DNA of 32,138 nt, taken from the NCBI GenBank assembly GCA_017883165.1, contig JADGOC010000030.1:1-32138 (forward strand). Reading direction: 5' to 3'. Shown here one piece after another: positions 19,324 through 25,098 of the stretch. Every line of letters begins with the position of its first letter. Within the stretch, counting starts at the first letter, position 1. The translations under genes and the position numbers were made by a program. Source of the stretch: Acidobacteriota bacterium (GTDB lineage: Bacteria > Acidobacteriota > Vicinamibacteria > Vicinamibacterales > CAVVIG01). The notes beneath the pieces are model-generated. The model did no database searches. It was not told the origin of the DNA and was given only the letters and a program-made list of their open reading frames with translations.

Positions 19324-20397
19324 ATGATCCGGCTAAAAACAATCGACGCGCACGCCGCGGGGGAGCCGCTCCGGCTGATCGTCGACGGTTTTCCCGCGCC
19401 GCATGGCAAGACGATGCTCGACAAGCGGGAGTGGGTGAGGAAGAAGGCCGATCACCTGCGCCGCGCCCTGATGCTCGAGCCGCGCGGGCATGCGGACATG
19501 TACGGCGCGGTGCTGACCGAGCCGGTGTCGCCGGGCGCCCACGCCGGGGTGCTGTTCATGCACAACGAGGGCTACAGCACGATGTGCGGGCACGGCGTCA
19601 TCGCGGTGACGACCATCGCGCTCGAGCGCGGGCTGATCCTGCCCGGCCCTGAGACGACGATTGTGTACGACTCGCCGGCGGGCACGATTCGCGCGCGCGC
19701 GACCATGGCGCCTGCGGCCACGCCTCGCGCGCAAGCGTTAGAACGCGAGGCGTCGGCGAGCGGGGGTGGGGCCCCGCGAGAAAGTGGAGAATGCCGTGAC
19801 AGAGTGGCCAGCGTCGCGTTCGTCAACGTGCCGTCGTTCGTGCTGCACGGCGGGCTCGCGGTGAAAATCGGCACGCGCCAGATCCGCGCCGACGTCGCGT
19901 TCGGCGGCGCGTTCTACGCCATCGTGGACTGCGAGGCCGTCGGGCTGCCGATCGACGCCGCGCACCTGCCGGAGCTCCGGCGGGTCGGCATGGAGATCAA
20001 GCACGCGATCGAAGCCGCGCAGACGATCGCGCATCCGCTCGACCCCGGCCTGGGGGGCATCTACGGCACGATTTTCACGGGTCCACCCAACAACCCGAAG
20101 GCCGACCTTCGGAACGTGACGATCTTCGCCGACGCTGAGGTCGATCGCTCGCCGTGCGGCACCGGGACCGCGGCGGTCATGGCGGTCATCGATGCGATGG
20201 GCCTGCTCGACGAGAACAAACCGTTCGTCCACGAAAGTCTGATCGGCACGCTGTTCACGGGCCGAACGGCCGGACGTACGGTCGTGGGTGAATGCCAGGC
20301 GATCGTGCCGGAGATCGAAGGATCGGCGTGGATCACCGGGGAGCACACGTTCCTGGTCGACGAGGACGATCCGCTGAAGAACGGCTTTCGCCTGTAG
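19324..20397 (+). CDS. Proline racemase / 4-hydroxyproline epimerase family protein with an internal insert
   Basis: 357 aa. Two-base isomerase fold with both catalytic cysteines: Cys88 in STMCGHG and Cys278 in DRSPCGTGTAA. A Cys/Cys pair is what racemases and hydroxyproline 2-epimerases have; trans-3-hydroxyproline dehydratases carry Thr at the second site. N- and C-terminal family motifs are intact (TIDAHAAGEPLRLIV; GSAWITGEHTFLVDEDDP). Residues about 129-159 (Ala/Pro/Arg/Glu/Gly-rich) interrupt a region where the family normally runs straight from the RARA strand to VASVAFVNVPSFV. At DNA level this insert is palindromic (see 19714-19800) and keeps the frame. It may still be active, since the insert lies away from both cysteines. 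It is divergent from the ornithine-cyclodeaminase-like gene. Confidence 0.88.
   Translation: MIRLKTIDAHAAGEPLRLIVDGFPAPHGKTMLDKREWVRKKADHLRRALMLEPRGHADMYGAVLTEPVSPGAHAGVLFMHNEGYSTMCGHGVIAVTTIALERGLILPGPETTIVYDSPAGTIRARATMAPAATPRAQALEREASASGGGAPRESGECRDRVASVAFVNVPSFVLHGGLAVKIGTRQIRADVAFGGAFYAIVDCEAVGLPIDAAHLPELRRVGMEIKHAIEAAQTIAHPLDPGLGGIYGTIFTGPPNNPKADLRNVTIFADAEVDRSPCGTGTAAVMAVIDAMGLLDENKPFVHESLIGTLFTGRTAGRTVVGECQAIVPEIEGSAWITGEHTFLVDEDDPLKNGFRL
19714..19800. repeat. Palindromic element inserted in frame within a coding region
   Basis: It contains a perfect 10-bp inverted repeat, ACGCCTCGCG and CGCGAGGCGT (19720-19729 and 19744-19753), followed by a second hairpin GCGGGG / CCCCGC (19760-19765 and 19772-19777). 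The limits are set by where the encoded protein departs from its family and are approximate. It looks like a short interspersed palindromic element. Confidence 0.55.
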
Positions 20398-23538: not shown

Positions 23539-23544
23539 CTTATA
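23539..23544 (-). promoter_or_regulatory. -10-like hexamer ahead of the VWA gene
   Basis: TATAAG on the minus strand (5 of 6 consensus bases) ends 8 nt before the ATG at 23530 and overlaps the stop codon of the SGNH hydrolase gene. It could give the VWA gene its own leaderless transcript. Confidence 0.3.
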
Positions 23545-24271
23545 GCAACGGGTGTGCCTTCGCGAGAGCGCGCTTGATCGCCGGTTCGAGGGCGAGCGCC
23601 ATCAGCCTGTATCCGTCCGGTGACGGATGCAGGCCATCGGGCGAGGACACGAGACGATCGGGCGCACCGGGCGCGCCGACCGCCGCGCGCGTATCGCAGA
23701 AGGCGACGTCGGCATGTCGCGCCGCGTAGTCGCGAATCCAGTTGTTGACCTGATGCATCCGCCGGTTCTCAGCGTCCGCCGCCGTGTTGTAGGGCATGAT
23801 GGTGCCGGCGACGACCGGAATCGCCGCAGTACGCGCGGTGTCGTACATCCCTTCCAGCTCGCGCTCGATCGCTTCCGCGGTCCGCCCCTGATAGATGTCG
23901 TTGACGCCGGCGATGATCACGACGAGACACGGAGGGCGCCCGTTCCTGCGTTCCGCGATCACGTCGCGCGCGAACCGTGCGCGGATCTGGTCGCTGCGTT
24001 CGCCGTTGACGCCGCGATTGAGCACCTGCCAATCGGGGTGGGTTTTCATCAGCCAGTAGGCGTACTGGCTTTCGGCGTTGCCGGCGCCGTTGGGGGGCGC
24101 CTCGAGCGGCGACGTGAACGCCGGCGTCCCCGCCGTGGTCGAGTCGCCGAGCGCGATAATGAGGGGGTCGGGAGCCTTTTGCACAATTTGCCAACTTATC
24201 GGGCAAATTATGCAAAAGGCTCCCGACCCCCTCAATAGGCGACTTGACCGGTCGGATATGCCGAAGTACAC
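23540..24271 (-). CDS. SGNH/GDSL-type esterase, 5' end altered by a palindrome
   Basis: Up to 243 aa. SGNH hydrolases remove acyl or acetyl groups from sugars or lipids. Block I is ALGDSTTAG with the nucleophile Ser44 (counting from 24271); block III is IIAGVNDIYQG; block V is SSPDGLHPSPDGY, with the catalytic Asp and His. The enzyme core begins only at PLIIALGDS, about residue 36. All codons before that lie in or upstream of the 24161-24233 palindrome, so no normal signal peptide is encoded. Starts available are GTG at 24271 or a GTG inside the palindrome near 24184; neither has a ribosome site. The original 5' end was probably replaced when the palindrome arrived. It may be poorly expressed. 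Confidence 0.8.
   Translation of the reverse strand: MYFGISDRSSRLLRGSGAFCIICPISWQIVQKAPDPLIIALGDSTTAGTPAFTSPLEAPPNGAGNAESQYAYWLMKTHPDWQVLNRGVNGERSDQIRARFARDVIAERRNGRPPCLVVIIAGVNDIYQGRTAEAIERELEGMYDTARTAAIPVVAGTIMPYNTAADAENRRMHQVNNWIRDYAARHADVAFCDTRAAVGAPGAPDRLVSSPDGLHPSPDGYRLMALALEPAIKRALAKAHPLL
24161..24233. repeat. Long perfect palindrome (REP-like)
   Basis: Arms 24161-24192 and 24202-24233 pair over 32 bp with one mismatch; the outer 23 bp are perfect (GAGGGGGTCGGGAGCCTTT plus TGCA, and their complement). The loop is 9 nt. It is too long and regular for chance and lies exactly at the 5' end of the SGNH gene, 85 bp before the FTR1 start codon. It resembles bacterial REP/MITE-type interspersed palindromes; no second copy is in the window. 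On the plus strand it could also act as a strong hairpin. Confidence 0.8.
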
Positions 24272-24272
24272 T
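24244..24272 (+). promoter_or_regulatory. Candidate promoter of the FTR1 gene
   Basis: TTGACC (24244-24249, 5 of 6) and TACACT (24267-24272, 4 of 6) are separated by 17 nt. Transcription would start near 24279, just before the Fur-like site at 24285-24299. Confidence 0.4.
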
Positions 24273-24284
24273 CAATCCTCATTC

Positions 24285-24299
24285 TGAGACTGAATCTCA
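24285..24299. promoter_or_regulatory. Fur-box-like operator
   Basis: TGAGACTGAATCTCA is a 7-1-7 inverted repeat matching at six of seven arm positions. Read on the other strand with its flank it is AAATGAGATTCAGTCTCA, close to Fur-family ATGAGA-type boxes. It lies between a putative promoter and the ATG of an iron permease, so iron repression of that gene is the natural reading. Confidence 0.5.
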
Positions 24300-24318
24300 T
24301 TTTAGACCGCTGGTTCAC

Positions 24319-25098
24319 ATGTATCAGGCGTGGTTTCAGGCCTTCGTGATCACCCTTCGAGAAGGGCTCGAGGCCTTTCTCATCGTCGCCATCAGCCTCG
24401 CCTACCTGCGCAAGGCTGGACGCCAGGAGCTCGTCCCCGCCGTCCGCTGGGGCATCGGAATCTCCATCCTCATCAGCATCGGCGGCGCGTTCCTGTTTCA
24501 GCGCGCGGCCAATCACGCGCTGTGGGAAGCGGTCCTCTGCGTGGCCGCCGCGGTCTCGGTCGCGACGCTGACGATCCACATGTGGCGCACCGCCCGGCGC
24601 ATCAAGAAAGACATCGAAAGCAGCCTCTTCAGCTCGACCATGAAGACCGGACGAGCGGCCTTCGTCGGCGTCTTCCTCTTCACGCTGCTGATGATGACGC
24701 GCGAGGGCATGGAAACGGCGCTGCTCACCGGCACGCTGCTCTTTCAATCGACCGGCATCAGCGTCGTCGCGGGCTGCGTCGTCGGCACCTTGTCCGCGGC
24801 GTTCGTCGCGTGGCTCTGGTCGCGTTATGGCCACCGCGTGAACCTGGGACTGTTCTTTCAGGTCACCGCCATTTTCCTCCTGGTCTTCGTCGTCCAGCTG
24901 CTCATCTACGGCTTTCACGAGCTGATGGAAGCCAACATCTTTCCGCACAGCGGGCCGCTGCACGCGGCGACCGAACCATACGGCCCGGATGGCATCTACG
25001 GCCAGTACCTCACCTATCTTCTCGTGCTGCTGCCGCTCGGCTGGCTGGCTGTGACCGCGCTTCTGCCCAGGCGCGCGCAACAATCAGCCGCCCGCTGA
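24319..25098 (+). CDS. FTR1-family high-affinity iron permease
   Basis: 259 aa, about seven membrane helices. Both signature iron-transit motifs are present: REGLEA (residues 14-19) and REGMET (128-133). The N-terminus has no periplasmic EfeO-like or cytochrome domain, so it is the permease alone. Bacterial FTR1/EfeU proteins import ferrous iron after or during oxidation, normally with an oxidase partner; none is encoded next door. An open frame reaches 25 codons upstream, but those overlap the Fur-box-like site, and family N-termini match the ATG at 24319. Iron control through the Fur-like site is likely. Confidence 0.92.
   Translation: MYQAWFQAFVITLREGLEAFLIVAISLAYLRKAGRQELVPAVRWGIGISILISIGGAFLFQRAANHALWEAVLCVAAAVSVATLTIHMWRTARRIKKDIESSLFSSTMKTGRAAFVGVFLFTLLMMTREGMETALLTGTLLFQSTGISVVAGCVVGTLSAAFVAWLWSRYGHRVNLGLFFQVTAIFLLVFVVQLLIYGFHELMEANIFPHSGPLHAATEPYGPDGIYGQYLTYLLVLLPLGWLAVTALLPRRAQQSAAR

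Follow-up and report, generated by a model that had tools for sequence, protein, structure and literature searches.

A REPIN-like palindrome at the start of an SGNH hydrolase gene and its sister copies in an Acidobacteriota genome

The window, the whole 32,138-nt stretch of an Acidobacteriota genome analysed here, contains a divergent pair of genes with a long palindrome at the 5' end of one of them. The coding region of an SGNH/GDSL hydrolase runs on the minus strand (23540..24166, counted from the inner edge of the palindromic element, with the stop codon at 23542-23540), and its core matches the Pfam family Lipase_GDSL_2 (1.9e-29). The divergent neighbour, at 24319..25098 on the plus strand, encodes an FTR1-family iron permease. 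The palindrome at 24157-24237 has 36-nt arms that are 94% complementary and are separated by a 9-nt gap. The arm closest to the hydrolase (24157..24192) is an inverted REP-like unit with the core GGGGTCGGGAGCCTTTTGC at 24164-24182. The loop is at 24193..24201, and the distal arm (24202..24237) has its core at 24212-24230 on the minus strand. A first-pass annotation of this DNA had reported a palindrome with 32-bp arms forming the 5' end of the hydrolase gene, in a span (24161-24271) that covers most of the palindrome and an upstream in-frame GTG at 24271-24269. The palindrome is real and its arms, as measured, are 36 nt. As that annotation also held, the enzyme core, judged by the Lipase_GDSL_2 match, starts directly outside the palindrome, and the DNA before the core consists of the palindrome and of DNA that is intergenic in an orthologous locus (G009), and of nothing else.

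The palindrome stands out from the rest of the window. With up to 2 mismatches and a loop of less than 20 nt allowed, its 36-nt stem is the longest observed, whereas 40 dinucleotide-shuffled versions of the window gave no stem above 18 nt. The core GGGGTCGGGAGCCTTTTGC occurs twice, with 0.00 occurrences expected. If inverted repeats are counted from 22 nt upward, with arms no more than 100 nt apart, the window has two: this palindrome and a self-overlapping repeat of 23 nt (74%) at 19678-19715.

The palindrome belongs to a repeat family. When the genome (4.24 Mb, 334 contigs) was searched with window positions 24161-24271, many further sites were found. The 13-nt core GGGGTCGGGAGCC has 38 exact copies in the genome, versus 0 for a reversed control, and 22 elements of one family were recognised. 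Of these, 21 are short inverted pairs of 55-97 nt. The remaining pair is long, its two core starts being 741 nt apart, and encloses the only Y1_Tnp match of the genome. Seventeen of the short elements, placed side by side, have their outer ~20 nt in common with few mismatches and differ in their loops. The family REP/TIR unit is approximately GGGGGTCGGGAGCCTTTTGCAGTTTCTGC, the inner part of which has diverged in the SGNH copy. Unit ends read GGGGTCGGGAGCC, and the GT[AG]G foot of canonical REPs is absent. The exact 17-nt core is present in 3 of 162 genomes of the order; the same core together with a related transposase is also present in genomes G058 and G023. Counting the copies, as the first-pass annotation had proposed, has borne out its view of a dispersed element.

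That annotation had also proposed looking for a REP-associated tyrosine transposase. One Y1 transposase is present, located between purM and purN (L022) and flanked by inverted copies of the core of the SGNH element. The protein has 221 aa with the HWH and Y motifs 62 residues apart, and Pfam finds Y1_Tnp alone in it, the single match in the genome at E <= 0.001. Its score against the NCBIfam model REP_Tyr_transpos is 64 bits, which is below the cut-off of 80. Transposase and dispersed pairs together are organised like a RAYT and its REPIN-like satellites, minus the GT[AG]G foot.

Two described systems resemble this arrangement. The REPIN/BIME elements with their RAYT, in the available text of PMC3116915, share with it the inverted hairpin pair, the many dispersed copies and a Y1 transposase with the same repeat. 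Unlike them, the present family has no GTAG/GTGG foot and was found as 22 elements, and whereas REPIN/BIME are usually extragenic, 8 of the 22 lie inside ORFs. Several of the TIRYT/TIRtron systems come from the same phylum, and the available part of PMC3733652 describes TIRs starting GGGG(T/A)(C/G), dispersed TIR dimers, and Y1 transposases flanked by TIRs, some of them GGGGWSAS and one group being in Acidobacteria. Compared with GGGGWSAS, the sequence here, GGGGTCGG, fits except for a G in place of A. The C-terminal DnaA-like/HTH domain that the consulted portion of PMC6006769 gives for TIRYT subclass 2.1 was not found here by Pfam.

Where do the sister copies sit? Placement of the 22 elements was judged by codon signal, Pfam domains and inspection of starts and stops. 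Eight are in frame inside ORFs, eight more form or overlap gene ends, and six are intergenic (L005, L006, L014, L016, L053 and L054, with L053 at a contig end). The in-ORF copies are in genes for an APH-aminotransferase (L004), an ATP-grasp ligase (L013), UvrC (L015), a gyrase/topoisomerase-IV A subunit (L009), a membrane protein with a YfhO match below Pfam's cut-off (L055), a MidA-type methyltransferase (L017), a uracil-DNA glycosylase (L011) and a DPPIV-like protein (L008). Seven are flanked on either side by coding signal in a single frame. The eighth, in the DPPIV-like protein, is in the N-terminal region, with possible starts both before and inside the element. If frames were random, the probability of all 7 of the 7 clean in-gene copies being in frame would be 0.0005, an improbability that points to selection for survivors. 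Four of these seven placements (L004, L013, L009 and L055) are based on domain order and codon signal, without an insertion-free orthologue, and the matches from solved-structure searches for L009 and L013 did not settle the question of insertion. For the MidA-type protein, comparison with 4f3n revealed no clear net insertion. With copies inside so many unrelated genes, a purely extragenic REP reading was rejected. The ATP-grasp gene, which is L-amino-acid-ligase-like, lies on contig C304 and has an element just upstream (L006) in addition to the in-frame one inside it (L013).

Gene 5' ends are formed or overlapped by four elements, at the SGNH hydrolase, a histidine kinase (L056), purN (L022) and possibly MPG (L007), where a TTG is also present after the element. 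In the histidine kinase and in purN, an in-frame ATG is followed directly by repeat-encoded codons, GCA GAA ACT GAA/GCA AAA GGC TCC CGA CCC. Seven elements form or overlap a gene 3' end, three of which are also among those counted for 5' ends. Four of the 3'-end stops are TAG codons made at the element edge, of the form TAG followed by GGG(G)TCGGGAG. In another location (L003:1495-1570), the CtaA frame runs on into the element, which is read as the protein's C-terminal tail and finishes at an ATGA that overlaps the start of CtaB.

Intragenic palindromes have precedents. The consulted sections of PMC3733652 report REPs inside ORFs, many of them in DNA synthesis and repair genes, including, as here, the excinuclease ABC group. 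They also report TAG stops supplied by REPs, as well as REPs at N-termini, and in the authors' view many of the N-terminal ones go untranslated. The available portion of PMC6006769 describes REPs inserted in frame in transposase genes. The Rickettsia palindromic elements, covered in the accessible text of the review PMC2229807, are likewise palindromes in frame inside conserved proteins. Unlike these elements and the other intragenic REPs, the family described here has a matching transposase in the same genome, and some of its copies apparently form gene starts.

The purM-transposase-purN arrangement is found in 4 of 26 family genomes and, outside the family, in G058. Loci with a related transposase were compared at one per genome for 30 of the 43 genomes with a match. 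Both purM and purN are present at 8 of the 30, in three families, purN alone at 3, and neither gene within the examined flank at 19. The Y1 transposase between purM and purN is seen at L022, L095, L182, L191, L201 and L205, in several genera and three families. As read by eye, the PurN N-terminus is repeat-encoded in 7 of the 26 family genomes (G000, G023, G008, G026, G011, G012 and G009), the start being less clear in G012, where no ATG appears in the inspected part of the PurN frame. In twelve of the other 19, the same PurN core is preceded, at a distance of exactly four codons, by an ATG or GTG, for example GTGAACCGC. Repeat-like scars are present at the coded PurN N-terminus of three genomes free of the transposase (L145, L149 and L160). 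The purM-transposase-purN locus did not surface in our literature search, which is a weak negative.

The copy in UvrC can be compared with relatives across 20 genomes, this one included. The loop that holds it is 90 nt long here versus 18 nt in G003 and G004, a net gain of 72 nt. Other repeat-like inserts, identified by eye, are present in this loop in at least six family genomes (G023, G012, G013, G026, G016 and G009), and it looks like a permissive landing site. The loop precedes DDFAAMHEVV (L103-L122); its in-frame inserts differ by genus, with types GGGATT, TGGCTGG and TTCGACAGGCTCAGGACGAGC, and it is minimal in G003 and G004. In the uracil-DNA glycosylase, the linker is repeat-encoded in this genome and, by eye, the linkers of relatives are similar in length. 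The same linker in G023 (L131) holds that genome's own inverted pair, AAAAGGGGGACGGGAGCCCTTTT.

For the hydrolase gene itself, the most informative relative is G009. Its SGNH hydrolase has 72% protein identity, and the divergent FTR1-SGNH arrangement is as in the window (58% identity in FTR1), with no palindrome. A 65-nt stretch of its intergenic DNA is conserved in the window at 24240..24304 with 83% identity (E 1.4e-16), and there represents a native intergenic remnant. In G009, ATG ATT ACG directly precedes IVAIGDS, the ATG thus being 9 nt before it, at the place where the window has the element. The order in the window is the conserved upstream stretch, CCTAT, the element and then ATTATCGCG. 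Because G009 has the ATG, the conserved flank and no palindrome there, we infer that the element replaced the native SGNH start, and the earlier proposal that the gene's 5' end had been overwritten is supported. The exact ancestral start is a reconstruction, since the nearest palindrome-free orthologues are 72-73% identical in protein. The spacer at SGNH is 79 nt in the window, 77 nt in G009 and 39 nt in G020. With 79 versus 77 nt in G009, a simple insertion is not established at this site; replacement, or insertion plus deletion, is possible at the element sites. FTR1 was not found at 11 other orthologue loci, most of them covered with 1.5-4 kb of flanking DNA (L087, in this comparison, is the same locus as that of G009).

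The first-pass annotation had further supposed that a signal peptide was lost with the start. It had named orthologues that naturally start near the GDS core as evidence to the contrary, and this is largely what was found. Ten of 13 orthologues, read by eye, have an ATG no more than 14 codons before IVALGDS. Two of the ten (G049 and L088) have an additional hydrophobic stretch further upstream in frame, and the other three orthologues (G029, L090 and L091) have no clear ATG before the SGNH core, again by eye. Read in this way, the 5' ends do not support the loss of a signal peptide, while the replacement of the start stands.

Which codon could start the gene now? A GTG inside the arm (24182..24184, minus strand) is one candidate and would give MQKAPDPLIIALGDS (MQKAPDP-LIIALGDS). 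No clear Shine-Dalgarno sequence was seen by eye before it. Among the 29 arms caught by the pattern, this position is CTG in 20 and ATG or GTG in 4, namely the two of the SGNH element and both of one other, so that a start codon here may be due to chance. A second GTG (24269..24271, minus strand) is upstream of the element and would involve read-through of the whole element, giving 243 aa; it is preceded by TGAGG, 5 nt away. The G009 stretch homologous to this upstream region is not coding (GTG TAA). A TTG at the outer edge of the element (24233..24235, minus strand) is in frame and is a weaker candidate.

We consider it probable that the palindrome is a RAYT/TIRYT-type miniature element on the SGNH start and that the gene reads its N-terminus from the element. 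Such an element would be REPIN-like, two REP/TIR units head to head around a variable loop, and would probably be mobilised in trans by the one Y1 (HUH) transposase of the genome. One copy would have landed over the translation start of a signal-peptide-free SGNH hydrolase, replacing the original start codon along with a few residues and leaving the reading frame open. The enzyme is then most likely still made with an element-encoded N-terminus, starting either at the arm GTG or by read-through from the GTG at 24271, and the hairpin may lower its level. This reading builds on the repeat family, the transposase with its flanks, the palindrome-free orthologue, the open frame and the in-frame sister copies, all of which are observed; it is the last of these, the in-frame sister repeats in other genes, that favour a translated SGNH start.

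The alternative that fares best, although we hold it to be considerably less probable, is that the insertion silenced the gene. The native start and ribosome site would be gone, the hairpin would block initiation, and the intact ORF would be that of a recent pseudogene. The native start region has indeed been lost, and the predicted fold of the element is a strong hairpin of -66.7 kcal/mol that would hide the arm GTG and hinder initiation there. The insertion may also be recent, given the agreement of the outer arms with the family. Against silencing, the frame has neither frameshift nor stop and the GDS, GVND and DGLHP motifs are kept. Nor is the branch long (0.17 versus 0.24 for G009, with the node joining both weakly supported), though a recent loss would leave no trace of these kinds. 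In-frame GTG codons are available, and sister repeats keep the frame in conserved genes, among them that for PurN, where this is seen in several genera.

Somewhat more doubtful is the idea that the palindrome acts mainly as RNA or DNA, as an mRNA stabiliser, a promoter or a regulator of FTR1-SGNH, with its coding being accidental. REPs are often held to act post-transcriptionally, according to the available text of PMC3733652, and the element has a sigma-70-like match on its minus strand, one of 3 in the region versus 0.3 expected. On the other side are the copies inside many unrelated genes. A T-run terminator was not found at the palindrome, and a terminator role was rejected on that basis. 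Rfam returned no family for the palindrome at its gathering score; microRNA-precursor matches, far below their gathering scores, reflect only the long hairpin and were rejected.

A further proposal, which we regard as unlikely, is that the transposase lineage has evolved coding-compatible palindromes that are stop-free in six frames, with ATG or GTG in or near the arm and a TAG at the edge. By landing at operon joints or in protein loops, such palindromes would rebuild a stop upstream, a start downstream or a peptide read through the element, and the gene would not be destroyed. The starts of SGNH, PurN and the histidine kinase would then be supplied by mobile elements, and that of PurN kept across genera. 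The 21 short elements have a mean of 4.4 of 6 frames open, against 2.5 in their shuffles, an excess that palindrome sequence symmetry and survival bias could explain. Like the arm itself, 1,581 of 5,000 mononucleotide shuffles of the arm are stop-free in six frames, and with so many shuffles equally stop-free, selection for coding compatibility is not established.

An assembly artefact or chance palindrome, to which a draft genome of 334 contigs might be prone, is very improbable given copies on many contigs with different loops and flanks, a control pattern with 0 matches, and the recurrence of the core, along with a related transposase, in G058 and G023.

Both REPs within genes and Y1 transposases flanked by TIRs have been published before, as the consulted sections of PMC3733652 document. 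Specialists may be less prepared for an orthologue that lacks the palindrome where a start was replaced, for the recurrent purM-transposase-purN locus in which repeats encode the start of PurN, and for the UvrC loop. The SGNH case provides a palindrome-free comparison for a mobile palindrome taking over a gene start, and the genome links in-frame palindromes to a transposase with matching repeats. Through the recurrent purM-transposase-purN locus and the UvrC loop, it becomes testable whether such repeats continue to be translated. There is also a warning for annotation, as start codons near REP-like repeats are easily mis-called.

On the permease side of the intergenic region, the inverted repeat TGAGACTGAATCTCA at 24285-24299, which we take to be Fur-box-like, lies ~20 nt upstream of the FTR1 start, inside the stretch conserved in G009.
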